A stretch of DNA of 64,000 bases from Polytrichum commune. Taxonomy: Eukaryota > Streptophyta > Polytrichopsida > Polytrichales > Polytrichaceae. Numbering within the stretch: position 1 is the stretch's first letter; each line of letters opens with the position of its first letter. Of this stretch, positions 10,875 to 64,000 are shown one piece after another. The notes under the pieces are model-generated. The model was not told the DNA's origin. It ran no database searches and saw nothing but the letters and a program-made list of their open reading frames with translations. Made by a program: the position numbers and the translations under genes. The DNA lies in the NCBI GenBank assembly GCA_950295325.1, contig OX485804.1:60482533-60546532 (forward strand), written 5' to 3'.

Positions 10875-13800
10875 TTATGAAATGGAGTTCCTCCATCTGC
10901 GCGGGTTGGTGCGCCGTTCTGATGGAGTTCTTTCGATCTCCTTGTGGTGGAAGATTTGTAGTTTGCCTATTTTCTTCCACCCTGATGACCATGAAGAAGA
11001 TCCTCTTGTTCTTGTGAACTTCTCTACCTGCCATGACGAAGTCACAACTAAACGTGAGCACAAAGGGAAGAAACTTGGAGTTCCGGCCATGCATCAGAAG
11101 ATTATTGGGACGATGATCGCTATTTAAAAAAAATTGTTACCGTAATAAGCTATGTCGACATGGAGATATTTCCCCGAAATTACAGGACGAGGCTCATCAA
11201 ATTGACTGTACCTGTTCTAGCATAGTCGAGTGATCTCGCTCCATCTCGCTGTACTTCATTCTCATCGTGGCAAGCTCACGTTGCAATGCTTTGATCTCCA
11301 TTTGATTTGTACATTCTTGCAGTGACAGCTGATGAGCGACAGCTGCATCCACCTGAGCTGCAGATTGAGGAGCAGCTGCTGTTGTGGCTTCTCGAGGATT
11401 AGGGACATCCTCGGTGTGGTGATGATCCTCATTTGCGGAACTACTGATGTCTGAGATGGTAGTCCTTAACTTCAATTGCTCACTGAACAGAACCTGCAGG
11501 GAGCAGATCATCGTGTTAGAAAGAATAAGAGTTTATTACAGCTGTGAGGCTTATAATTACTGAACGTCGGATGGAGGCAAAGTAGAAAGAAAAATTTGTG
11601 CGCTCCAATTACCTGGACAACAACGCGAAGTGGCAGTCGCTCGTTTTGAGCAGCATGCATGCATGCATCCAATGTGAGTCGCTGGCAGTCCAACACTCGA
11701 CACAATCTCTTCCTTTCCTGCTCTGTCAAGCTCGGATGAATCTGCAACTCAATACACATGAAACTCAGTAGGAATTTTCGCATGTAAGTGTGACTAGAAA
11801 TTTTTAAGACAACAATGCGTTATAGTTACCGATTTTTTAGAGACACTAACCTTCATGTACGTGTCGATTGCTGTGTAGAGTCCATCGTCATGCGCTCTTG
11901 AATTTTCTGGTAGAGCTTCAGCAAGTGACTGAAACTTGCAAAGTGGAAGTTTGCTGTCTCGCGCTACCTCAGTTAAATAAGCATCCAGAAGCTTGCCAAC
12001 TTTCGCCCTTGCATTTGGAGCTGCGTGAGGAGTCTTCTTGGCTGAGGTGCCGTCGAACACAGCTCTGGTTCTCCTATCCGTGGGAGTATGCTTGGGGCTT
12101 GAATTTACACCTTGGTCCTGCAGATGCTTCAAACCGTCAGGAAAAAGTATGTCCAAGGAGCTACGCACTAGCATTAGTCCTTGCATGTCGTCGCTGTTAC
12201 ACATGATCTTATTGAAGACGTTCAGCTAATGCTTTGCATTGAAATAGAAGCGATTGATTCAAGAAGCCATGGAGGAAGACATAGTAGAGAAACTTGTGTA
12301 GGTAAGTTATACTTCAAGAAAAAGCATTCTAGCATTCCACTCGCTTTGAGTCAAATCTTATTCCCACAATAGTCCTATTTAACATCACGTCTCTAGATGC
12401 GGTTGCACTTGTTCTATGCGCTGGCACTGAGGTCCCATCATCGCGGCTATGGCGGGCAAGCTCTAAAACAATTCTGGTAGAGAATTTTTTCTTGCAGAGA
12501 ATTTTTGTTCAAGCTTACCAGAACTAGGAAATGGTCCAGCAGCCGACGCACAAGATCCACATCGTAAAGGTAATCACTCGTGTGGCAAAAAGAGGGAATT
12601 AGCAAGTCGCTCAAACTGCCCTGGTCCAACTGTAAGCCGGCTTTTCTCTCCAAGTCCCCTCTACAACTGGAGCTGCAGTTCAGCATGTTAGCCGCTCGCA
12701 GCATTCGGAGGAGGAAACTGCAGGAGACTGCATCTTTCTGGTGAGGCAACAGGTTCCCAATCTCTTCGACCAGGAACCGGTTCCTGTTTTGCTCGGCGAT
12801 GTACTCGCTCAGCTTCGGAGGACTGTCCTCCCCGGTCCTCTTCGCAACAACTAACTCCGCACCATTAGCTCCATTCCTGGGAGATGACACTGGAGACATT
12901 TTCTTTGTAGGAGAGCTCGACGAGGACGCATTGCTTAGCGGTGCAACCGGGGAAGGCTTGATCACTCCTTTTAGCCATTTCTGAGCGTAATACTCCAAGG
13001 CGCCTCCTAAGAGGTCCACTTTCATGCTAGTCTTCTTGATAGCGGCCACCACCTTACCGAAGCAGAAGAAAGTGAGATGCGAGACATCTTCGTACCACCA
13101 GTCCTTTGGAGCAATCTTGACATCGAGGCCGTCCAGCGGATTCTTGAAATCTGTGGAAGTGGCCTGCACCAAATAATCGGAACTAGAGTAAAGCCACCGG
13201 ACACCTCGAGGATCGGTTACAGCCTTGTGCGCAACAGACTCGCTGAGCCGCCTCACAAGCTGGATATCCTCCGCATACGGAAGCAGAAGCTCACAGGATT
13301 GCAACACGATGATGGATTCTTGCCACGAATTTAGAATCACAAGGTTGAGGTACGCTTCCGCTTTGCTGATCACATTGCCTTCCTCGAACTCCTCCGTCAT
13401 CTCGAGGTACTCGGCTGCGCATCGGAGGGCCGCAATGTTGGTCGGCGAAAGCTCCACCACCACGCCGTAACACAACTTCGTGACGAGGAGAAACGCCTCC
13501 GCTCCTCCAGGAGCATCATCCAAATTTAAGTAAGTCTTCCCGGAGCCATTGTATCGAGCCGCTAGCTTGTACAGGAGGCCACTTCTTGATATGATTGGAA
13601 GCTGCATTCGCCGCGCCTCAAAAGATTATCGGAAAATGTCACAGAAATCTAGCAATCCTAACCCGCTCAGATCCATCATCGTTGTCCTCAAAGAATTCTA
13701 CACGAATTTTTTTTTTAAATGCAAACGCTCCGATGTGATTCATAGAATTGTTCACATATGACATTACTTTGTGAAGATGGAGTAGGAAATCTCACAAACC

Positions 13801-43654: not shown

Positions 43655-44711
43655 AAATCCTTCTGCAAAGGTATGTATGAAATTTCATGGCAAAGAACCA
43701 AAAGTAGTAATGAGACTGTAATTGATATGATTAAGATATGTTTGAGGTTGAGAAATACATGAAGGTTTCGATTCTTTCAAAATGGATGAATATACTTATC
43801 ACATCATCAGAGAGGCCATTGCCTACAAATGGGGAGATCCAATTGCTACACTAAATGCTTCACGTAGATGCCAATGGACTCCTCACTTGCCCCATTTTGG
43901 GAGAGTATTAAGGAAGTTATGCCTAATCAAACCTTGGCAGTCCCGGGAGCCACTCCCAGGCCACTGTTGTACCAGGGCGTTGTCGTGGGACAACGCCCCA
44001 CTCAAATTGCCATAACTCCTAGCTCACACCTCCAATTGAGGTGTTATTGAGCATTCTAGAATCTACACGCCATGAGCTACACATAGCTGATGGTCTTACC
44101 CTCGTGCTTCCTAATCTCCGTGGGTGGGAGGCGTTCCCAACGCCCGGGGCCCTCACCCACACTAGGATCACTTGGGCCCTCTCACCAACGGCGCCACAAG
44201 TCCCGGGTGTCACTCCGGGGTCCCCCTTGTGCCCATGGTGTTTCGGGCACTCCTCATGGAGAGGTGCGCGACAGATCATGCCATCAGAAAGGGGAGTCAA
44301 GTCCACCATATCCAATACGACCATTTGGATTGAACGGGCAAGTGCCATTCCTTGATGACGGGGTTCACAAGTTGGACCGTGACAAACAAACTTCCCATCT
44401 TGAGTCATTGGATGCTATGCGTTGGGACCACATGGCTACATTGTAGGATACTCTCCAAAACAAGCAACCTTAAACACACTGTCTTGCAATATTGAGGCCT
44501 CCAATGCACTCGAGTCCGTACCCATTTTCACAAGCCACACATCAGGCACAACATGTTGGACATCACACTGTACTTCATCTGTCCACCAACATAACGTTTC
44601 CTATTGCCAGGGCAAAACTAAAATGCGTTCTAAACTGACCTCTTCATAATTTTGGACTTAAAGAGGCCATCATACAATGGCACAAGAGTAGAGACGCCAA
44701 TTTTTGCCTTG
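43655..44711. other. Flank of the large retrotransposon, GC-rich patch
   Basis: 43930-44300 is notably GC-rich with GGGCGTTGTCGTGGGACAAC, CCCGGGTGTCACTCCGGGGT and GGAGGCGTTCCCAACGCC, short palindromic words. ORFs run on both strands here without a domain. Probably part of an older element into which the large retrotransposon inserted. The 5 bp next to the LTR (44707-44711) are CCTTG; the matching duplication would be beyond the window. Confidence 0.4.
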
Positions 44712-46881
44712 TGTCGAGGTCACCTTCAAACCCTCAGCAACTTAGACGGTGTAACCCGCTGCTGACCGGTTTACATGGAAGTTACTCCCACCAAAATTAG
44801 ATCCTTCATTTGATTTCCATTTCTGGTGAAGGTGTTTGCACTCATATAATCTTAATTTTGTGATACAAAATCTTAATGCTCTTTTTGAATCCTCAAGGAC
44901 AAATTGACCTAAGTTTTCAAGTTTATGTTCCCCGAAATCTAATGTCAAGGTTAGGTGATCCTAAACCTTTAAATAGATTTAGCAACACAATACTTTTCGT
45001 AATCAAGAACAGTGTTTCAAAATCCTTTTTATAAATCCCTAAGGATAAAGTGTCCAAGTTGTCAAGTTTATGTTCCCCGAAATCTTAATGTCAAGGTTAA
45101 GTGTTTTAGGGAGAACATCATTCATACATACAATATCTTTCATGGTTTGAATGATCGTAAAATATCCGTAATCCATTAAGAATGTGTGTTTATGATAAGT
45201 TTACAATTCCTTTGAAGGTCCAAACATACTCTCTCACTAAAGTATATTCATAAGATTTCATTCTTCTACTCAATTCCTAGAGTTCACATAATGTTCACGT
45301 GAAAAGCTTTCATCAAATGTTTGTTCCGTTTCCAAGAATCATTCCTCAATCTTATGTCATGATTTTAGAGTTCTCTTCAAATCTAGAAGGTAGAGTTTAA
45401 TGAGTTGGAATCCTAATCTCGTTTCGAGTTGATAGGTTGATGAGGCTCAATTGCCGGCCGCATTCCGTGTACTCAAGTTGGCTTGATTTCATGTTTTGAT
45501 AACCTCCATGTCGCATCCACCTTTATTTCTCCAAATCATGATCTCGACTTCGCCACTTAGCTCAATCTATCTCTAATCATACTCGAGTAGCTTAGGTATC
45601 CATTTTCGGCTTCTCCATGTTTAACTCTTTCGAGTACTACTAATTTGGCCTTTTGCCTTTAATCGATTTTCCAAATTTATAAATGTCTCCAAAAGTTCCT
45701 CCGGTATATTTCCAAAATCCTAAACTACCTATGGATCCTTTGACCCTCTCCGTGTTTTGAAGAATCTCTATGATTTTCTATCCTCCAAAGTCTTGAATCA
45801 TTTTGAGAATATTCTTCTCAATCTCTAAAAGTTTTAAGCCTTGAGGATGATCTTTCAATCCTTTTGTGCTCGAGGATCTTAGTTTCAATCCTTTGTTCTT
45901 CACGTCGAGGATAATATTTCAATCCTTTCGGCTTCGAGTCGAGGATAATATTTCAATCCTTTAGTTCCGAACGCCTCCGAGGATAATATTTCAATCCTTT
46001 AAGTTCCGAAAGCCTCCGAGGATAATATTTCAATCCTTTAAAGTTCGTAGGCCACTGGTCTTCTAGTCCGCCACCTCGAGTTGCTTGCGTTGAATGAGGT
46101 GAATTAGGTGCCATATGTGGCCCCTTTATATAGGCTTCGAATTTAGGGTAATCTAAGATGTGGCGGTTAGGTCTTTAAATGTTTGTATTTACTAATTTTA
46201 GCCCTGAATGTTCATACAGTCTAAATTAGGCTCTGTCAGATCTATAATTAGACTGGCACGTGCTTTAATTAGATCTACTCATTAAGTACATGCGGCCATG
46301 TTCTAACCGCCTAGATGTGCCTTGGGTGGTTATAACTCCTCTTCATCCATTCATCCACTTTGTACCCATCCATTCATTTGCATAAGTTCATTACGATGAA
46401 GTAGGTAGTTATGTTCATCCGGAGGGATTTCATCCCCCTCGGGTATGTCCTTTCATCCCCCCCTTTGTCCTAAGTGTCTACCACCTTTCTCACTAACCTA
46501 TCTACTAATTGGTGAGGTGGCTCGGTGAAGTGGCCGCCCCGTGCCCTAATCTGCCCTCGGTGGCCTTAAAACGCGGTCGGTCCCTCAGTCTTCACAGCTT
46601 CCTCCTTGTGGTCTCCCCGGCTCCTTGGTCTTCTGGTCCCTTGCCTGAAGGCCCCGCAGCTCCCCTGTACGCCACGTGTCCGTCTTCCTAAGCTCCTGTG
46701 TTGGCCCCCCGTCGGTCTCGCGGTCTTCAGTCCGAATGGCTCTTCCTCCGTTCCTCCTCACCCTGGTTCTGTTGCTGCTCTGTCTTCGAAAACTAACCTT
46801 CTTCGCTGCTATTTGCTTGTGAATTCATGCTTGCCTTGAGATCTCTACCCTGATTGCATACGGGAGCTTGGGAGGTCTACA
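44712..46881 (-). repeat. 3' LTR (left in window)
   Basis: 2170 bp, starting TGTCGAGG and ending GGTCTACA on the plus strand, so TG...CA in either reading. It is bounded on the inner side by a polypurine tract of the minus strand. Contains TATATAAAG on the minus strand (46132-46124) and, downstream of it in transcription, tandem copies of AGGATTGAAATATTATCCTC. Matches the right LTR over all of the latter's visible length. Confidence 0.93.
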
Positions 46882-46923: not shown

Positions 46924-49560
46924 TTACTGAACAGGTTGCAAGATGGTTCGAGAATTGGGGGTGCCAAACCTCTTGGTGGAAATGGTGGTCTCTTTCTCCC
47001 TGATCACTCGCAGCACGTACTCTTTGATCTGGGATAATGTGTAGGGGCCTGGTAATCGATTTGGGTGTCTCTCTCGTAGCCAGGTGAATTGTTGCACTGC
47101 CTCATAACAAATACTGGTATCCTCTGTTGTGAGTGTCTTGAGAGCCTGGTTGAAGGTGATGGGCTGATTTTTGATTGTCTCCTTGATCTGGTGGTACAAG
47201 TTACTGGGGTAGGGTTTCATGGTTGGTAATCTGGTGACAGGAGTGTGATTGTAATACTCCGAATGGTGGTGGCTAATGAAACTAAGGGTGCGAAGCACGA
47301 ATCGGCCGATGTAAAACGGTGGAGAGCCTGTTACCGCCTCCATAATTCCTGTTGGTAACTTTATCTCACCCTTGACCCACATAAATGCAAGGGTGTCTCT
47401 TGCTGTAGCGTCCGCATTGGACCAGATCTGCTCAAATTGTGGCTTGGAAAGAGTGACACCGGGTTTAAGGAGAGGTACCTGACTGATCAATAGGTTCAGG
47501 CCCTTCAGAGCATGGTAAGCTTGCATTATAGTTTTGAAGGGAGGAATGTTTGTGATCAGCTGCTGGTAGATGCTTGCTCCTGGTGAAATGCCTGTCCTGG
47601 GAATGTCAGTGGGGCTGAGATCATTGGGGAGGATGTCCGCATTTGGATCTGGAGGACTCTCAAAGATCTTCTCCACCGTCACCTGCAACTCGTCCCTTTC
47701 CCTGGTAATGTAACGAAGCTCCTGTTGCAGCTCGGTGACTGAGCGTTTCTGGGCCTCTGCCGGGTTCATCACTTCTTCAATCAGAGAATGAAGTGCCGAT
47801 GTGCCTGTTTGTGTGATGCTCCCGCTGGCCTGTGGTGTTGCCTCCTCCGACCTGGGCGTAACCAGGCTGGTGTTGTAGGAAGCTTTCAGTGTCTGATTAA
47901 GTTCCTCTTCAAGGGTCGCCAAATTGATGGCTTGCTGGTCGTGCTCGGCTTGTAAAACCTTCAACTGTTGTTGGTTGTCCAGAAGGTCCTTTTTCGCAAT
48001 CTCAAAATCATGTCGCTGCTGGGTCAGTTCCTTGGTTACCTGCTCACATTGCTCTTGCTGGACTCTGTTTTCTTTTGTGAGGGCAGCGACTACCCCTTCA
48101 GATGCAGATAATTGGTCCTGTAGTTCGAAAACCATTTCTACTTGGTCTGCATAACCCTCATTGAGGGTGGCTAACTCTTTCTTTAGTTCCTTGATTTGTG
48201 TGTGCAATAAGCCCTTTTCAACTGCGTGCTCATTTGTAGTTAGAGGTTCTTTCAGCCTCAAATTCTGGTTGTATTGCTGGTTAGCCTCAACCTGCAATTG
48301 CTGAAATTCATCATCCATTTTTTTGACAAATTCTGGCCCTGCTTGACTAGTGAATGCAGTGAGTAATTTCTCCAATCTGCGATGGGTGAAACAAATCTGA
48401 TTGACCATGTTGGATGTGCTATCCGGTACCTGCCACTTCTCTGCTGAGTGAATTATTCGGCACTTCTGAGGTTTTTCTCCCGAGGTCGTGGCTTGGTCCT
48501 GTGCTCCGCTATTGGTTGATCGGCTGAGGTGTGGGTTGACCCGTATGACAGTGTCTAACTTCCTTGTGTTGGATTCCTCTCCAAATTTCCGCTTCCGATG
48601 TGGAGTTATGCGTTCTGCCATGGTCAGTCCTGTCACTGTCCCGAAACCTGCCAGTTTTCTTTCTTGGCTGCCCAAGAGTTGTGCATCTTCAATGATTAAC
48701 GTGAGGTGAGGTCCAATGGCCGTTTTAAGGACCTTGGCCTTATCTTCCTGCTGGTTTCGATGCATAGTAATTACCTCAGCCTTGAACTCATCGAAGAATT
48801 CCAGTGGCCAATCCACTGCCTGCCCATTGACTGCTGCCAACACTAATTTGGCAAAATGAATTGTTATGCTGTATTGACTTGTTGTGTTAAGGCAGAAAAA
48901 TGAGCTGAGGAGGCGTAATGGCCTTTTGGAGCCCGCCATTTGACAGTCACTCACCTTCACTGTGACCTGCCCCTTTTGTATGACCTTTAAAGAAGGAAAG
49001 AGCTCATGCAACTGCCGTGTCTCTCCTTCACCCGCCCCTTTGGGTGACAAATGGAAAATGTTTTGAAATAATTTTCTCCAATTTTCAGAAAACAAAGGCA
49101 AGATTTCACCTTTGAGGCTGACCTTCAGAGTGTCCTCTTGGAGTGTGTTAATAGCCTCTGCTGCCCTGACTGGATGTACAACTCCCCAAGGTACATCGCA
49201 CAGAAATTGTTCCAATCGCAACTTGCGCAAGAATGTGAGCTCCTCCTTGCTGAACTGGGTGGTCTTGTAGGCTGCATCCATGTGAAAAGTGAATGACTCC
49301 ATTGGTGTATAAGCAACCAGCCCGTGCATCAGTTTGATGGTAGGAGAATCCTGTATAAGCTTGGCAGCTCTTGCCACAGCCTGAAGTAGCACTTGTTGCC
49401 AAATATGTTGCTTGCACAAGGTTGGGTGCAGTTTGTTGTCGTCAGAGTTAAACCTGATGGTGGCTAAGGCTTTAAGGGCTCCGAGCTCAATGTGCTTCCA
49501 CGCCTTACCCTTGTCTGTGGCAGCCATGGTTGTTACTTGAGGTGACTGTTTGTTGGGCAA
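46924..49560 (-). CDS. 878-aa coiled-coil ORF downstream of pol (third ORF), function unknown
   Basis: A complete ORF of 878 codons lying between the integrase region and the PPT, in the same orientation, ending only 25 nt from the PPT. About residues 1-330 look globular (KHIELGALKALATIRF, AVDWPLEFFDEFKAEV). A basic HRKRKFGEE segment at about 330 could be a nuclear signal. About 390-640 is a long heptad-rich coiled coil (KELKKELATLNEGYADQVEM, ALTKENRVQQEQCEQVTKEL). The rest (640-878) is again globular (TIMQAYHALKGLNLLISQVP). No signal peptide or hydrophobic membrane segment is visible, so it does not look like an envelope protein, though Athila-type elements carry env-like ORFs at this position. 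Unlike gag-pol it has no stop or frameshift. I do not recognise the family. Confidence 0.8.
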   Translation of the reverse strand: MPNKQSPQVTTMAATDKGKAWKHIELGALKALATIRFNSDDNKLHPTLCKQHIWQQVLLQAVARAAKLIQDSPTIKLMHGLVAYTPMESFTFHMDAAYKTTQFSKEELTFLRKLRLEQFLCDVPWGVVHPVRAAEAINTLQEDTLKVSLKGEILPLFSENWRKLFQNIFHLSPKGAGEGETRQLHELFPSLKVIQKGQVTVKVSDCQMAGSKRPLRLLSSFFCLNTTSQYSITIHFAKLVLAAVNGQAVDWPLEFFDEFKAEVITMHRNQQEDKAKVLKTAIGPHLTLIIEDAQLLGSQERKLAGFGTVTGLTMAERITPHRKRKFGEESNTRKLDTVIRVNPHLSRSTNSGAQDQATTSGEKPQKCRIIHSAEKWQVPDSTSNMVNQICFTHRRLEKLLTAFTSQAGPEFVKKMDDEFQQLQVEANQQYNQNLRLKEPLTTNEHAVEKGLLHTQIKELKKELATLNEGYADQVEMVFELQDQLSASEGVVAALTKENRVQQEQCEQVTKELTQQRHDFEIAKKDLLDNQQQLKVLQAEHDQQAINLATLEEELNQTLKASYNTSLVTPRSEEATPQASGSITQTGTSALHSLIEEVMNPAEAQKRSVTELQQELRYITRERDELQVTVEKIFESPPDPNADILPNDLSPTDIPRTGISPGASIYQQLITNIPPFKTIMQAYHALKGLNLLISQVPLLKPGVTLSKPQFEQIWSNADATARDTLAFMWVKGEIKLPTGIMEAVTGSPPFYIGRFVLRTLSFISHHHSEYYNHTPVTRLPTMKPYPSNLYHQIKETIKNQPITFNQALKTLTTEDTSICYEAVQQFTWLRERHPNRLPGPYTLSQIKEYVLRVIREKETTISTKRFGTPNSRTILQPVQ

Positions 49561-51382
49561 CAGTTGGTTGGGTAACTGTTTGAGGCAGCGAGAGAGAGAG
49601 AAACCGTCACTCTTCAGCTGAAAAGAGAGGTTGAGGGAGGTTGCTTGGGCTTTGAACCCTAGAACCTGATGTTGGGGTTCTTGGTAGGGTTACGCTGGCT
49701 GCTGAGGTGGCGTTGCTTGGCGTGCTGAAGTGGCATGGTAAGTCCTCCTCTCCCTGCTTTTGGTTGTTTGTAAGTTCTTCTTAATTTTTGGACTGATTCC
49801 TTGTAAGTGGGTTGTTACAGGTGCACTGGTTACTCTTTGTGGGATTCGCCCTTCGGGGCTTGAATCCCCATTTTTCTTGGGGTCCACTTGTTGGACCCCT
49901 CCAATCAAAATTAAATTGGAGTTACTTGTTGGTTCTCTCATTCTTGTAATGGTTTCTGTATGTTGTTGATTCGGCCATATCCAAAATCTGTATTCAATTT
50001 CTCACAGTCTTTGTAAGCATGTGCTAGAGTAATATGGTGGAAAGAGTTTTCCTTGATTCTCGTGTTGAATGAATTTTTGGTAGGTAGCTTCGTGAAATTT
50101 CATTTAGTAGAGATTTTTGGTCCGTAAGTCTTGTTGGTCTCATTCGAATCATTTGAGGATCATTTGCTTGTCAAATTCCTAGTTTGCCTCAATGTTGTAA
50201 GGACCGTAATGGGCCTGCTTTTGCTCCCGTCTCTTTACAATACAAAAGTTACTAAGATATGGTGCATGCCACGTTTGATCGTCCTCTTACCATATCCAAC
50301 CAAAACACTTGGTCTTATGTGTTGTTATTGAAACATAATGTTTTGCACAAATTTGTAGTTACTTAAAGGTGACGAACAACAGTCAGCTGCCCTGGTTGTT
50401 GAATCCGCAAAATTCATCCGTAGCTTCGCCTTATCATCCATCGCTTTATTTGCAATTGTAACGAATGTTCAACATTTCCGTCGATCGTTCAGGTTTCATT
50501 TTATCATCCATAATATTCATCCATCGAATTCGCTCTTGAGTCCCCATTGAGACCCCATCCTGAATTTTATTTCTCCCATCCTGGTTTACTGGCAAAAGAA
50601 AAGTCTAACTGTCCTGAAAGTTTACCTGCTTCGAAGTCGTAAAAATATATGTTCTGCCCTTGCTGGCCTACGTGCCCGTTTTTTTTTTTTTTTTTTTTTT
50701 TTTTTCAATAAACTCCGAACATTCCCTCGATCTGTTAAAACTTTTGTCTCACCTTCGCATCCATCCAACTTTCTCATTCGTGTATCCTCTTACATTCTAT
50801 CCATTTATCTTATAGGGACTTCCTTTCCCAGACTTCTTCATCCATAGTTGTCTTTATCCACAATGAAATCTATCTTCCAAACTCCATCCACTGCTGTTTT
50901 CATCCTTCCTCTATCTTCCTAAGGTGTATCCTTGTAATGTCGCTTTTAACAATCCCGTTCCTAAATAATAATCATCCTTGACGTGTTCATCCGTCTCGTC
51001 AGTCTTTAAAACTTCATCCACTGTACTTCTCAGAGTCTGTCTCAAGGTAATTAACATCCTCCTAACAGGTGTTTATTGAGTAACTCGCGGTTCTCCTTGT
51101 CTGATATAACTTCCCTATTCACTTAATAAAGTTTCATGGTCCCCAAGTGTTTTACTTCATCCTTACGCATATGTGTAAATTTTCAAGTACCCTATGTGGT
51201 GTTGGGTAAATAAATAATTTTCCCCCCGTTGATTTGGTTCGTCGTGGTTGCATAACGAGGTCATAATGTTTTGTCAAATACTTTTTATCTTTTGTGATGA
51301 TAAAAAAAAAAACTCTCACTGGTTACTAACCCAGTGTGTCGCCCTAGGCGAGCTTTTGCCTAGGGGTTGTGTGTGGTTTTCC
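49561..51382. other. Spacer between pol and the 878-aa ORF
   Basis: 1.8 kb within the element with no substantial ORF. It has a run of 26 T (50681-50706; A on the element's sense strand). Between about 50400 and 51060 the word TTCATCC or ATCATCC, often followed by A, recurs more than ten times, i.e. GGATGAA on the sense strand; similar words occur in the LTR (46335-46380). It may hold a subgenomic leader, splice sites or a promoter for the downstream ORF; none is demonstrable. Confidence 0.5.
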
Positions 51383-54300
51383 TTATTCAAGAGGATGCAC
51401 CTCCCTACCCTCTTTCACATGGGTAGGGTGTTTATAGGCATGGTCCGCATCCTTTTGTACTTCTCCATCTAAGGTTGGCTTAGGTGGCGTAAATACATTT
51501 GTCCTTTGTGGTTTGACCAATTCGTTGGTTGACTGAGTGCCTTTGGCCTTATGGTCGCGTGGTCGTGTTATACCTTGTTCCCGTAACTTCGTGGGTTGCG
51601 CGTAATAACCTTCTAGCATGATATGATGTATCTCCAAGTCCTCTTCATCCAGGGTAGCCTGATCCGGGTATGGTAGTGGCTTGGTATGTGAGGTCGTTCC
51701 TTGGTCAGATGGTTTTAATAAAGGCTTCGAAATGTCCTTGTTTTGAGTTTGGGATTTCTTTGCCTTAATCTTCGCTTCCAAAAGATGGCATGCTAGAATT
51801 TGTAAAGCATAAGCTTGAGGAGTCTCCGGTTCTTGATATGGTTTGAGTTTGTTCATGTTAACTCGCCCCAACTCTTCTCCTTGTAAAGTGGTGACATCCA
51901 CCGATCCGTTGTCATAAACTTGTTTAATCACGTAGGGTCCTGCCCATCGTATTTTGAATTTGCCCGGCCCGGGTATTTTATGGCGTAAATGCCACAAGAT
52001 TCATTGGCCGGGGTAAAATCGTGGTTTGAGTGTAGTCCCTTGCTCCGATTCTTTTTCCACGATTGCGGATTCCTTAGTCTTATTTTGTGGTGGCTTGGTT
52101 GCTCCTTGCTTACATTGATGACAACGTGTCTTTGGTTTTGGATGGTCATGTCTCTCTTTGCGTAAAGTCTGCATGTGCCTCATGTTGTCTTCCGCTTCGT
52201 GTCGGGTCAAATCCATAATTCTGAGTTGTTCCATTCTCTTTTCGAGAATGGGATGAATTTCTTGGCTCCGTTTTTGGTACACATCAGGGTGAAGGTAAGC
52301 CATAGGCAATAAGGCTTCCGTACCAAAAACTAATGAAAATGGAGTGTGCTTTGTGGTAACCTTATAGGCTGTCCTATAGGCCCAAAACGCTGCATGTAAC
52401 TTGGTATCCCAATCTGTTCGATTGGCATTAACCATTTTGGTCAAGGCAACTTTTATCACCTTGTTAGTACTTTCAGCTTGCCCATTCGCCTGTGGGTAGT
52501 AAGTCGTTGATTTTCGATGTAAAATCATAAATTCTTGGGTGAGTACTTTGATAGTGTCATTAATAAAATGACTTCCTTGGTCGCTCACGAACTCCAATGG
52601 GCATCCGAATTTTGTAATTATTTCTTCGAAGAGAAATTTGGCTGTTGACTTCGCCGTGTTATCTTTCAAAGCTCTGGCCTCCACCCATTTGGTGGTGTAG
52701 TCGGTGGCCGTAATGATGTACCGATTTTTGGTGCCTTTAGCTGGCGGATTGACTAGTCCAATGAAATCCAAACCCCATTTTTGAAATACCTCAGTAGGCA
52801 TTGTAGGGTGTAAGGGTTGGAGGTTTGTGGATACTTTAGGACCAACCCTTTGGCATATATCACATTGAGTGCAATATAAATGAACATCTCGCTTCATGGT
52901 GGGCCACCAATACAAAGCGGTCAAAATCTTGTGGAGGGTGATTCTAGCTGAAAAATGTCCTCCGGCTATACCCTCATGAGCTTCCGCAATGATAGCTGTG
53001 GTCACTGGTCCAGCCATGCATGTTCTCTGCATGCCGTCTGGACCCTCTTTGATTAGTGTCCCGTTTTGGTTTAACATGAAAGGTCGGCTGCGTATTGCTA
53101 TTTGTTGCCGTTGCGTAGTGGACGCTTCTGTGGTCAAGCGACCATGTTTTAAGTAATCAATGTAGGGGGTTCTCCAGTCTTGTTCGTTTTCCCCTTTCGC
53201 TGTGATCGTGGTGCACCTGACCATCCGTCCTGTGATTTGATCGGGCCAACAAATCCTGCAATGTCTGCATAAATAGTCAATATCAGGAGGAATTGTGGGC
53301 CACCAATATGGTCCTGTGTTGACTTGTGAGATCATCTCGTCCATTGAGAGATGTGGGTTTCCTTGATGGTGTACGGTTGTCAACCATTTAATCCCTTTGT
53401 CTTTGGAGATGCAAAGTTTAATGTCTCCATTTGTGAGCTTCCGTTTTAATTCCCCTTCTTGCAAGAAATACTGGGGTAATTCTTCACGCGACACTCCCAA
53501 TTCCTCGTGGAAGGCAAAATTGCTAAGTTCCATGGGGTTCTTGAGGTGTTGGATGATTGGTTCTCTCCAATCATGTGCCTTCTGGTTTCGTAAGACAGTT
53601 CCATAGTTCTCAATTTCAACACCTGGTAGTAAGTTATCCTGATATCTTTTACACTCGTCAATTGTATATTCCACGTCCTGGGGAATATTTGGCCACCAAT
53701 AGGGGCCTTTGTGTATTTATGTGAATATCTCTTCTTTTGCTAGAGGAGGTACCTGATATCCATATATTCTTTTCACCCAATCAATGGCATCTTCTTTAGT
53801 GATGCACATTTTTACTTCTCCGTTTGGTAATCGGTATTTCAGACCATCCTCGGTTATGAAATAAGTCTCCGTGTCGAAACTGGTTAACCCCAATCCCTCT
53901 TGGGTGTCAATATGGTTTAATTTCTCGATGTTATTTAGTTGTTGTATAACCAAGAGTCTCCAATCTGGTGCATGTGTTGGTTCTTGCGCAACCGAGTCTT
54001 GATTCTTTGTCGGTTGTATTTCCATTCTTTTGCAAGTTTTGCAATTTCTTAGATAATTGCACACATCAACTCCCCATGTTGGCCACCAATATTCTCCTGT
54101 GGCCACGGCCTTCCATGTTTCCATGGCTGCCATATGCGGTTTAATTTCCTCGTGAATTCTGGCCAAGTACATGGGTACGTGGGTCTCCGGAATGCAGCGT
54201 TGGTTACTCTTTCCACCTTTACGAATTCTTTGTAGAGTACCATTAGTGAACACAAAATATTCATGGCTGTGTTCCACAGCCCTTTTATCTTCCGGTGTTA

Positions 54301-57300
54301 AGTCTTGGATAAAGATTTTCTTGCATGTCAAGTATTCCATATGGGGACGTCTCCAATCCGTGGTGGGCGTTCCTTGGAATTCTTTCTTGCCTAGGTGTGA
54401 TTGGTTTTGCTTGCCTTTTGATAAGTCCGGTTGGTTGCCGCAGGTTAAACATTTGTGATTGCATAAGTTTTTGATGTCGGCTCCGCATGTGGGCCACCAG
54501 TAGGGTCCAAACGTGACTAGGTGCCACATCAACTCTATGCTAAGGTGTTCTCCTGAGTCGGTGATATGTAAGTCTTTTAGGTGCTCGTCGATCTCTCGCC
54601 CGGCAATACATATCTTAATGTCTCCGTCCGGGAATATCCTTTTTAGTTTTCCTTCTTCGATGAAATATTCTTGGCTTTGTCGAGTTATCTTCTTGTATTG
54701 ATTCTTTGAAATACCGGGTCCTTTAAGGTATCCGTAGGTGAGGTATTCTATCAATAACCTCCTCCAATCCTTGGTGTCTTGTGGTTGTACGGCAATGGAC
54801 CCGCAAATTATGTTATGGAGCGGGCCTCGAAATCTTCTTCGACAAGACGGGCAGTCGTACATAATGTACATTTGTATGTCGCACAGCCCCATCGTGGGCC
54901 ACCACCGATTCCCTTGCGAGCATCGAAGCCAAGTTTGTTGATCGTCCAAGTGTCTTTGCTGGTGTACGTGCATTTTCCCTATCCAATGCTTTATTTGGTA
55001 ACCAGCAATGCAGATTCTAGCCATTCCATTTCTCTCCAGTTTTCGAAGTTTTCCCTTCTCCAAAGTGAAAATTTCGCTTTCTCGTATGGTTTCTCTTTGC
55101 CCTCTTTGGGTCTCCATGTCCATTTTGAATCTTCCATGCGCCAGATATTCGACTAGAGGTGTTCTTCAATCATTGAAGGTTTCTTTGTATGGTATAATGT
55201 CCGTCCCTTTACCAGGTTCCGAAGTGCTTGCTTCTGTTGGCAACTCTTCTCCTCGTTCTTCACACTCGGTGCATAGTATGATGAGTAGGGAGACGTCTTC
55301 AGCTATAGTTGGCCACCAATAAGGTCCTTTTAGAACCAATTCCCTGGTGGTACTTACGGAGAGATGCTGATTTTCCCGTATATGGAGGGTCTTGATGTAA
55401 CTCCTCACATACCTTCCAGGCATACATTTCTTTGTAATGCCGCTATGAAACATGTGGTGTAACTCTCCTTCAATGAGTATGAAGAATCGGCTTCGGTATG
55501 TTACCAATTTTCTCTCTTCTTTGGGTAGGGAACTCACCCAGGGGGTTCCGTGTGTTAGACATGTCAGGTGTTGGACATATGGTGTTGTCCAATCCGATTC
55601 TGCTTTTCCTGTCATGTCTTCTTGCGCTTCCAAAGGTTGTACAGGGAGTGGATCGTCGTCGTCCTCTGAATCTTGTGGGGTAATGTTCCCGGTTTCGTTT
55701 CCTTGGCCAACAACCTTACATACTGGACATTCTTGACAGTATTCTAGTACGTCTCTTCGTCGGGTAGGCCACCAATATGGGGTGCGTAGTATGTAATGCC
55801 ATGTTGAAGTTAGGTTGTAGTGTATCCCATCTTGTTCATGGGCTTCATTTATGATTTCTTCAATGATATCCCCGGCTATACACTCATGTATCTTGCCGGA
55901 GATGCTGACCCGCATGAGCTTCCCGTCGTCTAGAACGAATGGCTCACTTAGTTGCCTGATCTTGTTCTGTTCTTGTGGGGTGGCTAGAGTTGACGACAAC
56001 TTCCCGTGGGTCAGGTATTCAATGAAAGGTGCTCGCCAATCTTCAAAAGATTGCACATGTACCATGAATAAGTTTGCATCTGGGAATTGGTCTTCGATCC
56101 CTGAGGGATCTTCTCCGCTTTCTATTCTCGATAGGTGGTCAGCCATCACATGGCTTCTCCCCGGTTTGTATATTACTTCAAAGTCATATTCTTGAAGTAA
56201 TAACATCCATCTAGCAATTCGGCCAGATACCACCGGTCGGTTGACTAGATACAGCAAAGCTTGGTGGTCCACGTAGAAAACCACGTGGTTGGCCAGAAGA
56301 TAATGCCTAAATTTGCCGACTGAGTAAATCATCGCCAAAGCTTCTCGCTCGGTGGTGCTGTAATTCCTCTCGGCGTTGTTTAGAAGTCTGCTGGCATAGT
56401 ATATTGGAGAATCTCTATCTCCGTGGATGTTTTGAGCCAAAACCGCACCAATAGCTATGTTGGAGGCATCACAATGTACGTGAAACTCCATAGCCCAATT
56501 GGGGGTTATTAGTATAGGCGTTGTTGTGAGTCTCTTCTTCACCTCCTCAAACGCCTCCTGGCAAGCTTTAGTCCAAAGGTATTTTTCTCCTTTCTTTAGG
56601 AGTAAGTAAAGTGGTCTAGTGATTTGTGCATACATCCAAATGAACTTCCAGTGATAAGTGGCTTGTCCTAAGAAGCTCCGGATTCCTCGTACTGTGGTTG
56701 GTGGAGGTAACTTTCCTATTACGTCCACCTTTTTGGGGTCTACCAACAAGCCTTCCTGGCAAACCACGTGTCCAAGGAGCCTTCCCGAATTTACACAGAA
56801 AAAACATTTATCCGGATTCAGGCTTACTCCGTTTTCACGACATTTGATAAGGCATTTCTCTAGATGCTCAATATGGTCCTTCTTGGTTCCATAGACAGTA
56901 AAATCATCTAGAAAAACCTTCATAAACTTATCAAGGTAGTCTGCAAATATTTTCATCATTCCCCTTTGGAATGTGGCTGGGGCACACATCAAATCAAAAG
57001 GCATTACTCGGTATGCGAATGCTCCATACTCGGTAATAAAAGACGTCTTCAACTGATCTTCCAGCGCGATCATAATTTGGTTGTAACCACTATACCCGTC
57101 CATCAACGTGTACATCTCATGTCCTGCAACAGCTTCCAAAATTGATTCGGTAAAAGGTAGAGGGAAAGGGTCTACCTTGGTGACCGCATTTAGCTTTCGA
57201 TAGTCAACGCATACTCGGAGTTTCCCATTCTTTTTGGGTACAATCACGATTGGTGACAACCATTCCGTTTTATCAACGGGGTATATAAACCCCGCTTCCA

Positions 57301-60300
57301 AGTATTTATCAATTTCCTCCTTTACTTTAGCTGCATAATTGGGGTTCATTTTGTACCGCATTTGCCGCACCGGCTTGGCTTCCAGTTGTAATTCAATTTT
57401 GTGTTCACAAACATACGGGGGTATCCCCTTCATGTCCTTATATGTAAATGCGAACACATCTTTAAAACGAAGCAAAAGATCTTTCACTTTAGCTTCGTAT
57501 TCTCCCAAGTCCTTGGCAATTTTCACCAACTTAGGATCTTCAAGGGTTCCTAGGTTCAAATTTTTGACTAGGTCTTCATCTTCCACGGTCCATCCCGCTA
57601 TCTTCTTTCCTTTGACTGCCTCCACGGCAGGAGTGACGTCCACCGTTATATCCCCTTCCTTAACCTTGTAGAATTGGTCCGGATATACGGGTTTCTCTTC
57701 CATGGCCTCTTGCTCCTTCTTGGTAGCTTTCCGAGGCCGAGGTTTCTCTGGTTCGCCGGGGTTTGCTTTAGGCCTTCCCGGTTTCTTAGGGTTATCAACC
57801 CCCACTGTATTACAGCTTGATCCGTGTAGTTTCCTTAAACTCTTTAAATCAAAGTCTCCCATCGGTAGCAACTCGGGAAATGCCTCGTAAACTATTGCTT
57901 CCTCTTCATCCGATAGTCCCATCTCCCAGTCATAGTCTTCCCAATTTAAGGGTCTCTTACCCGGTGGTAGTGCCGGGGTCCTTTGAGTACTCAATTCTAC
58001 CTTGCTTCCTCCTTGAGTCAAGGTCAATTTGTTGAGGGGCCAATCATGTTGTGCTTGGGCCTCCTTTAACCATGGTCTCCCTAATAACAGAGAGTAACTA
58101 TCTTCGGTGCTCACCATGTCTATAACGGTGAGTGTTGTCCGGATTACGATTCCGCCGACATCGAGGCGTACATCCCGGATGATTCCTTTGGGCATGACCT
58201 TCCTTTGGTCAGCCATTTTGATGGTAAATGGGGCGGGCTCTATTTTGTCAAGCCCTAGTTTCTTTCTTAAGGTATTAGTGATGATGTTCACTCCTGAGCC
58301 ACCATCGATTAAAACATTTGGAACTCTTCTGTTCTTAACAATTACTGATATCATGGGCATTTCTTCGTCGAACGCCTTTGCTGTTACGTGATATGTGGAG
58401 GTCGGTTTCTCTGTTTCCTCCTCTTGGCTGGTAAGGGCCGCCATTACCCGTTTCTTGCAATAGGGGGCTATCTCTAGCAGCTGCCCTATTGAGATGTTTG
58501 CTTTTGTGTGATTCATCACACTTTCCAAAATTTTATCCACCCTTGCTCGGGTAGTTGTTGGAACGCCTCCTTTCTCGGGGCTCCGTTTCGCTGGTTCTTC
58601 TGCCTCCTTTTCTGGGTACCAAGGTGCGAACTCCTCTGGCGTTGGTAGAGCTTCGCCCTCTTCCTCCTGTATTTCATGGATGGTCTTACTCACCTCCCGG
58701 TGGACCTCCCTATCCGCTTTCCATTCTTCACTGTTGGCTCCTATCGGCCTTTCTTCAATCACTTTGTTGCGTTCGTTATCCTCGAACGCGTCATCCCTTT
58801 CATCTTCCGAGTTCTCTTCCCTCTTTTGGTGGTCTTCTTGCTCCCCTGAGCTGCCACTGCTCGATTCATCATCGTCGTTGCTGTCATCACTTTCACTATC
58901 CTCTTTGCCTTTCTCGGCTGCGGCCCGTTGGCCTCTTGTCATCACACAAACCGCAGGGGACACTACGTTGGCTCCTACTGCCGGCTTTGTGTTTCTAAAT
59001 CCACTCAACTCCTGTTGGTGTTTAATAAAGTGCGGACAATCCGGTTTCCGGTGCCCCTTCTGATGACAATAGAAACACTCGTCGGGGTTGCCATCTCGCT
59101 GTGGTCCGCCAGTGAACCCAGTTCTCGGCGTTGCTTTGGTGTTGTTATTATCCATCAGGCTTCTGGTATACTCATACCTGTCATGGTTAATAGGTCCTCT
59201 GGGACCTCCTCGGTAGGGGTATCCATCTTCCCTCCGGTAATCTTGGGTTTTGTAAGGGGAATAACCTTCCCTTCGAAAATCATCTATGTAGTTGTCGTTG
59301 GGCCTGTAGTATGGCCGTTCCTCTCTGCGATATTCATTTCCCCGGTAGGGGCCTCCCGCCTCCCGCCGGTAATCGCCTTCCCTAAATGGGGATCTTTCAT
59401 CTCTTCTAAATTCCGTCCTCGGTTCGAACCGAACTCTTCTTTCATTCATTTCCCGCCTAGGAGTTATTGCTCCTGGCCTTCGATTGGATTGGGGTTGTAT
59501 TTGGTTTACCCCATATCTTCTATCCCGGGGCCTCCGAGATTCGTGCCTTTCATAAACACACTCACTTGTGTTATGAGTGAGGCTATTGCAGTTGGTACAT
59601 TGTTTCATTTGACACTCCTGTACGTAGTGTCCTTCATTTCGGCATCGCCGACAAATTATTCCCGTTCTGAATTTTCGGCTTCCCAAAGCCAGTCCCTCGA
59701 TCTCTTCTCTGAGTATTTTGAGATCATTCTTGGTCGTATCGTTTTTCTTACCCTTTGATTTCTTTTTCTTCCTTTTCCTTTCTTCTTCTGAATCATCGCT
59801 TGATTCATCGCTGTCACTCTCGTCATGAAATCTTCCTTTTCTCATTTGACCTAACTCCAATTTCCGAGCTGAGGCTTTGGCTTCGTCTAAATCATCGGTT
59901 GGCATTAAATCAATATGTTTGGCATACTCCTTCTTAAGGCCGTTAAGGAACCATGCCTTCTTGAACTGATTACTGGGTTGGGGATTGATTTTTGAGGATT
60001 CCACCATACCCCTTTCATAAAATTCTTCGATTGTCTTGTCTTTCTTCTGTTTGAGGGAGCCTAAGCCTTCAATGACTTCCCCCTCCGATTTCTTTGATCT
60101 GAATCTCATAAGAAAAGCAGTTCCTAAAGTTGGCCAATCTGGAAAATGATTTGGGCCAAATTGGGAGTACCATTCTAATGCTCGCTTCTTCAAGGTGACT
60201 GGAAATAATTGCAACTTGATTGCATCTGTGTCTTCCTGGTTGGCAAGACACACATTGTTAAATTCTTGCATGTAAGTGTCGGGATCTGTCTTACCTTTGT

Positions 60301-61967: not shown

Positions 61968-63099
61968 AAATGTCGAGGTCACCTTCAAACCCTCAGCAAC
62001 TTAGACGGTGTAACCCGCTGCTGACCGGTTTACATGGAAGTTACTCCCACCAAAATTAGATCCTTCATTTGATTTCCATTTCTGGTGAAGGTGTTTGCAC
62101 TCATATAATCTTAATTTTGTGATACAAAATCTTAATGCTCTTTTTGAATCCTCAAGGACAAATTGACCTAAGTTTTCAAGTTTATGTTCCCCGAAATCTA
62201 ATGTCAAGGTTAGGTGATCCTAAACCTTTAAATAGATTTAGCAACACAATACTTTTCGTAATCAAGAACAGTGTTTCAAAATCCTTTTTATAAATCCCTA
62301 AGGATAAAGTGTCCAAGTTGTCAAGTTTATGTTCCCCGAAATCTTAATGTCAAGGTTAAGTGTTTTAGGGAGAACATCATTCATACATACAATATCTTTC
62401 ATGGTTTGAATGATCGTAAAATATCCGTAATCCATTAAGAATGTGTGTTTATGATAAGTTTACAATTCCTTTGAAGGTCCAAACATACTCTCTCACTAAA
62501 GTATATTCATAAGATTTCATTCTTCTACTCAATTCCTAGAGTTCACATAATGTTCACGTGAAAAGCTTTCATCAAATGTTTGTTCCGTTTCCAAGAATCA
62601 TTCCTCAATCTTATGTCATGATTTTAGAGTTCTCTTCAAATCTAGAAGGTAGAGTTTAATGAGTTGGAATCCTAATCTCGTTTCGAGTTGATAGGTTGAT
62701 GAGGCTCAATTGCCGGCCGCATTCCGTGTACTCAAGTTGGCTTGATTTCATGTTTTGATAACCTCCATGTCGCATCCACCTTTATTTCTCCAAATCATGA
62801 TCTCGACTTCGCCACTTAGCTCAATCTATCTCTAATCATACTCGAGTAGCTTAGGTATCCATTTTCGGCTTCTCCATGTTTAACTCTTTCGAGTACTACT
62901 AATTTGGCCTTTTGCCTTTAATCGATTTTCCAAATTTATAAATGTCTCCAAAAGTTCCTCCGGTATATTTCCAAAATCCTAAACTACCTATGGATCCTTT
63001 GACCCTCTCCGTGTTTTGAAGAATCTCTATGATTTTCTATCCTCCAAAGTCTTGAATCATTTTGAGAATATTCTTCTCAATCTCTAAAAGTTTTAAGCC

Positions 63100-63305
63100 T
63101 TGAGGATGATCTTTCAATCCTTTTGTGCTCGAGGATCTTAGTTTCAATCCTTTGTTCTTCACGTCGAGGATAATATTTCAATCCTTTCGGCTTCGAGTCG
63201 AGGATAATATTTCAATCCTTTAGTTCCGAACGCCTCCGAGGATAATATTTCAATCCTTTAAGTTCCGAAAGCCTCCGAGGATAATATTTCAATCCTTTAA
63301 AGTTC
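63100..63305. repeat. Tandem repeats in the transcribed LTR leader
   Basis: Five or six copies of GAGGATAATATTTCAATCCT (plus strand) at ~37-40 bp spacing, the last ones separated by AGTTCCGAA-CGCCTCC. They lie downstream of the TATA box, so they would be in the 5' leader RNA. The same array is in the left LTR at about 45840-46046. Confidence 0.85.
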
Positions 63306-63382
63306 GTAGGCCACTGGTCTTCTAGTCCGCCACCTCGAGTTGCTTGCGTTGAATGAGGTGAATTAGGTGCCATATGTGGCCC

Positions 63383-63391
63383 CTTTATATA
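63383..63391 (-). promoter_or_regulatory. LTR TATA box
   Basis: TATATAAAG on the minus strand, within CCTATATAAAGGGGCC. It would place the transcription start near 63355 on the minus strand, making U3 about 0.8 kb and R+U5 about 1.4 kb. The same motif in the 3' LTR is at 46124-46132. Confidence 0.65.
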
Positions 63392-64000
63392 GGCTTCGAA
63401 TTTAGGGTAATCTAAGATGTGGCGGTTAGGTCTTTAAATGTTTGTATTTACTAATTTTAGCCCTGAATGTTCATACAGTCTAAATTAGGCTCTGTCAGAT
63501 CTATAATTAGACTGGCACGTGCTTTAATTAGATCTACTCATTAAGTACATGCGGCCATGTTCTAACCGCCTAGATGTGCCTTGGGTGGTTATAACTCCTC
63601 TTCATCCATTCATCCACTTTGTACCCATCCATTCATTTGCATAAGTTCATTACGATGAAGTAGGTAGTTATGTTCATCCGGAGGGATTTCATCCCCCTCG
63701 GGTATGTCCTTTCATCCCCCCCTTTGTCCTAAGTGTCTACCACCTTTCTCACTAACCTATCTACTAATTGGTGAGGTGGCTCGGTGAAGTGGCCGCCCCG
63801 TGCCCTAATCTGCCCTCGGTGGCCTTAAAACGCGGTCGGTCCCTCAGTCTTCACAGCTTCCTCCTTGTGGTCTCCCCGGCTCCTTGGTCTTCTGGTCCCT
63901 TGCCTGAAGGCCCCGCAGCTCCCCTGTACGCCACGTGTCCGTCTTCCTAAGCTCCTGTGTTGGCCCCCCGTCGGTCTCGCGGTCTTCAGTCCGAATGGCT

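Follow-up and report, generated by a model that had tools for sequence, protein, structure and literature searches.

Tandem arrays of integrase zinc modules in a Ty3/gypsy-type retrotransposon of Polytrichum commune and related elements

Integrases are generally regarded as fixed in architecture, with one each of NTD, core and CTD, and intasomes differ in subunit number. A single zinc domain before the core is likewise the usual Ty3/gypsy form, without defining the group. A stretch of 64,000 nucleotides from Polytrichum commune (contig OX485804.1 of assembly GCA_950295325.1, positions 60,482,533 to 60,546,532; hereafter the window) raises the question of what it means for one integrase to carry many such domains. 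On its minus strand, a long terminal repeat (LTR) retrotransposon encodes eight tandem H2C2-type modules (56041–52835) upstream of one DDE core, as a first-pass annotation made from the letters alone had proposed; eight zinc domains thus stand before the core here, and 5–11 in the relatives described below. The motif WWP occurs eight times (at 55774, 55318, 54904, 54499, 54088, 53698, 53305 and 52909) in one frame with a spacing of 390–456 nt, followed by a single rve core. The frame, from 60793 to 52001, holds Gag, protease, reverse transcriptase, RNase H, the eight modules and the one integrase core, so that the order Gag-PR-RT-RH-INT lies in one frame, with three stops in the window copy.

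The modules, all on the minus strand, were scanned with Pfam in pieces cut at the stops, the curated cut-off for Integrase_H2C2 being 25.5 bits. M1 (55598–56041; 41.0 bits) is acidic, and M2 (55169–55597; 23.8 bits, below the cut-off) and M3 (54764–55168) are basic, the latter beginning with the in-frame stop at 55166–55168. M4 (54347–54763; 25.2 bits, just below the cut-off) and M5 (53963–54346; 34.5 bits) are weakly basic. M6 (53573–53962) and M7 (53177–53572; 21.3 bits, below the cut-off) are acidic; M6 contains a stop at 53717–53719, and only its second half matches (20.9 bits). M8 (52835–53176; 58.2 bits) is basic and is the usual NTD beside the core. The full His-His-Cys-Cys (HHCC) set is intact in seven of the eight, the number first claimed, with the pattern H-x5/6-H-x30/32-CxxC; M6 has lost its zinc site, retaining one ligand of four. 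Pairwise identity among the modules is 16–45%. Seven or eight matches to Integrase_H2C2 had been expected, and seven modules do match, so the signal is not confined to the module beside the core; however, only three exceed the cut-off, four fall below it at E 4e-4 or better, and M3 gave no match in the Pfam scan.

Each module looks like a NED-NTD unit, more than a zinc finger alone, judging from invariant columns, H2C2 matches and profile alignments to foamy-virus and Ty3 integrases. Fifteen modules were aligned, ten from another copy (L040) and five from the window, leaving out M8 and window M1 and M6. No variation occurs in the columns of the four zinc ligands, of WWPT, of two leucines and of an additional cysteine; the zinc-less window M6 would have broken this invariance. 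For twelve of the modules, the match to H2C2 has an E of at most 0.01. A profile of all 15 aligns to residues 30–108 of foamy-virus integrase (E 7e-6), spanning the upstream stretch plus the zinc domain, and weakly to Ty3 integrase (E 0.025). The fifth cysteine (alignment column C54) lies immediately before the zinc domain in all 15 modules.

The array recurs elsewhere in the genome (408 Mb, 64 contigs). A search with M3–M5, in which 103 of 1,110 candidates were scored, matched the genome at 142 places across contigs C1 to C7; many are 63–87% identical, and their open frames reach 3,716 codons. A search with P0017, a public protein, covered residues 1–848 fully at 24 of the 53 places listed. 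Thirteen loci, the window included, were picked from the match list for long frames, extra upstream matches or membership of a second family, and are not a random sample; a further locus (L046), whose frame is broken and in which no more than four modules, whole or partial, could be read, was left out of the counts. Eleven modules are present at five loci (L040, L041, L042, L049, L052), eight at six (window, L043, L047, L048, L050, L051) and five at two (L044, L045). The entire array lies in one open frame at seven loci (L040, L041, L042, L043, L047, L048, L051); stops interrupt it in the window, L044, L045 and L052, and a frame change in L049 and L050. No intact 5-module array was seen among the 13. 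The module profile used in these comparisons was trained on modules of the window and of public proteins, so that window scores are circular while L040–L052 lie outside the training set.

These counts bear directly on whether the array is an artefact of assembly or recombination. Nothing speaks for that explanation apart from the stops in the window copy, whereas the identical module order is found at many genome loci and in other public contigs, and its probability is close to nil. The first-pass annotation had also suggested that the array is no artefact, a view that single-module copies with a chimera at this locus would have overturned; the 13 loci instead have 5, 8 or 11 modules. The stops in the window copy and the copies with more than eight modules go beyond that annotation. 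Assembly error and chance were both rejected on the Pfam matches, the many genome loci, the order in public contigs and the M3–M5 selection data given below.

Of 140 public proteins fetched, many of them fragments, 84 contain one module by the profile, 27 none and 29 two or more. Array proteins among P0001–P0031 agree with the genome copies in module type and order over the length that each fragment covers. They probably derive from other genomes, since each is only 62–92% identical to the best genome locus compared, and the best match of P0017 in the genome search is 78%. Six (P0013, P0018, P0019, P0020, P0021, P0022) match the 5-module family best. In P0012, M7 joins the region after the core directly, without M8 and core, a possible non-autonomous form noted by eye. 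Plasmids and a single scan of viral contigs yielded no relative.

A tree of 62 modules (113 columns, FastTree local supports) groups modules by position. M2, M3, M4 and M5 each form a clade with support 1.0, M1 with 0.98, M6 and M7 with 0.96, and M8 of the 8/11-module family with 0.93. The 11-module form contains an additional M1-M2-M3 block, whose members (M1', M2', M3') group with M1, M2 and M3. In L050, modules of the M2' and M3' types directly precede M4, an arrangement that fits recombination between like modules. The first module of the 5-module form is M1-like (0.78), the fourth M6/M7-like (0.88) and the last M8-like (77% identity); that 5 and 8 likewise differ by three modules is suggestive only. 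The modules are old and position-specific, and a plant Ty3/gypsy-type group has multiplied the integrase NED-NTD to 5, 8 or 11 within the gag-pol frame. The modules of P0041 and P0044, from public contigs with two modules each, group instead with single-module relatives (support 0.98), so that this duplication appears, from the tree, to be separate from the array expansion.

Pairwise dN/dS (ratio of nonsynonymous to synonymous substitution; Nei-Gojobori) was computed with the reservation that many pairs are saturated in dS, that pairs are not independent, and that some of the 30 copies used for M3–M5 are near-duplicates. Of the 435 pairs, 16 were omitted for having ≤10 differences and 53 for falling beyond the dS range; the remaining 366 have a median of 0.166 (range 0.09–0.53, none ≥1), and the 70 closer pairs (dS <0.5) a median of 0.257. 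In a second set of eight copies (18 to 28 of 28 pairs used per region), the medians are 0.096 for M1, 0.175 for M2, 0.129 for M3, 0.131 for M4, 0.188 for M5, 0.194 for M6, 0.147 for M7, 0.050 for M8, 0.012 for the core and 0.023 for the RNase H end. Zinc ligands of M3–M5 are retained in 352 of 359 cells of the 30 copies, compared with a mean of 0.81 in 392 other columns and an average of 0.81 in 19 non-ligand His/Cys columns. In public relatives 268 of 280 ligand cells are retained, counting rows with ≥48% identity over ≥36 residues; a few of these rows are short and match an adjacent type of module. HHCC is intact in 105 of 113 modules of the 13 loci and in 98 of 103 in the 8/11-module loci, where all five losses are in M6 (window, L041, L042, L043, L052). 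The substitution patterns thus indicate purifying selection on the array that covers most zinc ligands. Long-term selection on zinc binding, which had been suggested from the window, is borne out by dN/dS and ligand retention, with the exception of M6 in one subclade.

The modules also differ in charge by position. At the loci analysed, M1, M6 and M7 are acidic and M2–M5 and M8 basic, apart from one neutral M5 and one neutral M2'. In L044 the order of the five modules is acidic, basic, basic, acidic, weakly basic. In public relatives all M2 (6), M3 (5), M5 (6) and M8 (7) are positive and all M6 (9) negative, so that other contigs mostly repeat the sign seen at each position.

We propose, with roughly even confidence, that the array extends the integrase into a multivalent arm contacting nucleic acids and proteins. 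It would remain part of the integrase, or act alongside it, as a long arm whose basic modules (M2–M5, M8) may touch cDNA, target DNA or RNA, and whose acidic modules (M1, M6, M7) may touch proteins or, in trans, the basic modules of another chain. A single polypeptide would thus provide contacts that other integrases obtain from extra subunits. Module number would shift through gain or loss of the M1-M2-M3 block, by recombination between like modules. Passages of the report on the Ty3 intasome describe a NED that stabilises LTR contacts and is reported to bind TFIIIC (PMC8632968).

The same NED contact with TFIIIC (PMC8632968, in the passages cited) also fits an unlikely alternative, in which the array reads host factors or chromatin: its diversified modules would bind several host proteins, steering integration or evading host control, with DNA binding secondary. 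Such a reader would agree with modules that hold separate identities rather than being homogenised, and that evolve faster than the core. The basic central modules, however, suit nucleic acid equally well, and array loci are not clearly concentrated in any region. In distance to chromosome ends they do not differ significantly from other H2C2 loci (p 0.14; 61 places compared with 50, the first of 150 listed, and with a guessed length for contig C3), although on its own the 5-module family, with 21 places, deviates from uniformity (p 0.017).

The domain parts of M3–M5 have mean conservation of 0.84–0.87 in the 30 copies, and the linkers 0.60–0.76. This beads-on-a-string arrangement with variable linkers, together with the basic zinc modules, could point to a particle scaffold or RNA chaperone, an array that binds genomic RNA or Gag at assembly while in the uncleaved polyprotein and that might be processed into individual zinc proteins. 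We regard this as quite improbable: candidate zinc knuckles are already present in Gag itself (scoring below the Pfam cut-off), and no cleavage motif common to the linkers is evident by eye.

Several observations weigh against the multivalent arm itself. The dN/dS of M1–M7 is 8–16 times that of the core, so constraint on the array is weaker than on catalysis. Zinc is dispensable at the M6 position, because the subclade that lost the site stays constrained there (median dN/dS 0.27, compared with 0.17 in the zinc-keeping group). In the two 5-module loci HHCC is present in three of five and four of five modules, and both L044 and L045 have stops in the first module. Public relatives include one positive M1 out of two and three positive M7 out of 11, and two of their seven M4 deviate, one being negative and the other neutral; net charge is in any case a crude proxy. 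Protease cleavage between modules is conceivable, and AlphaFold models (mean pLDDT 35 for M4–M5 and 46 for M7-M8-core) are unusable for the three-helix zinc fold. The relaxed dN/dS relative to the core, the tolerated loss at M6 and the variable module number would suit a ratchet without benefit, in which duplications fixed by chance are now held by mutual dependence of the modules (constructive neutral evolution). That account is very unlikely, as modules of different families, and of other public sequences too, retain frame and ligands; a plain passenger would decay.

The element that carries the array is a Ty3/gypsy LTR retrotransposon by structure, occupying the minus strand of 44712–64140 (19,429 bp) and extending 140 bases past the window end. 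Both LTRs are 2,170 bp with TG...CA ends, identical at 2170/2170 bases: the 3' LTR lies at 44712–46881 and the 5' LTR, recognised by this identity, at 61971–64000 and on to 64140. The target site duplication CCTTG flanks both LTRs, at 44707–44711 and again beyond the other LTR. Gag (Retrotrans_gag, 59933–60211; 36.1 bits, E 8e-9), reverse transcriptase (RVT_1, 56765–57241; E 2e-24), RNase H (RT_RNaseH, 56186–56488; E 8e-34) and the integrase core (rve, 52493–52795; E 5e-11, with DDE residues seen by eye in the alignment) match Pfam on the minus strand. The aspartic protease (58073–58345, minus strand; Asp_protease_2, E 8e-5) scores 23.7 bits, just below the cut-off of 24.3. The integrase C-terminal region (51383–52000, minus strand) follows the third in-frame stop and has no Pfam family; the Pfam scan found no chromodomain, the mark of a chromovirus, in it. 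Only RT_RNaseH families were matched by Pfam in the scanned pieces, and no second (archaeal-type) RNase H, the mark of Tat elements. A minus-strand open frame of 921 codons lies between pol and the 3' LTR (46924–49689); it matches no Pfam family with confidence, and weak matches of its 3' half include coiled-coil proteins.

The window copy is not intact, since pol has three in-frame stops (55166–55168, 53717–53719 and 52001–52003), the first two within the array. Identical LTRs despite these stops suggest that the copy was mobilised with the help of other elements, or that the LTRs underwent conversion. Degenerate direct repeats occur within the LTR (44875–44957 with 45021–45103, and 45836–46040). 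Elsewhere in the window, a minus-strand frame at 12447–13607 belongs to the NPH3 family and is probably a host gene; NPH3 is a plant-specific domain, and its presence agrees with a land-plant genome.

An NTD multiplied within one chain amounts to a natural experiment on the role of the NED-NTD and on domain gain in retroelements, and the 2-, 5-, 8- and 11-module forms make the purpose of extra NTDs directly testable with isolated domains. A search limited to titles and the openings of abstracts, with most subscription literature outside its coverage, returned no report of tandem integrase zinc modules, which leaves their absence from print unproven. A survey of plant LTR elements (PMC6317226) describes, in the portions cited here, extra RNase H domains and chromodomains, and a multiplied NTD does not appear in those portions. 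The Tat/Ogre/Retand elements of plants are likewise Ty3/gypsy with an extra pol domain, but in the same portions of that survey the addition is a second RNase H (PMC6317226), which Pfam did not find in the window element. Ferns and liverworts (among them Adiantum, Riccia and Calypogeia) have Ty3/gypsy proteins with a related M8 and core (40–57% identical) but a single module. P0041 and P0044 share the tandem H2C2 before rve, with two Pfam stretches each, but they stop at two modules and belong with the single-module group. Ty3 integrase has a single NED-NTD per polypeptide, compared with 5–11 in the array elements. M8 matches the HHCC NTD of Ty3 (PDB 7q5b) at E 0.0025, and the array profile does so weakly; a DDE core lies downstream in Ty3 as well, and the passages cited above describe a NED in addition to the NTD (PMC8632968). 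It is possible, if somewhat short of an even chance, that in plant Ty3-type elements the integrase NTD became an expandable, charge-patterned arm of 5–11 distinct modules, growing in blocks of three, as a covalent stand-in for the multi-subunit NTD contacts of retroviral intasomes, and that a second lineage is starting likewise with two modules. Prototype foamy virus integrase (PDB 3oym, 3l2q) aligns with the array profile over the residues given above, but has one module, and in its intasome the additional NTDs come from multiple protomers.

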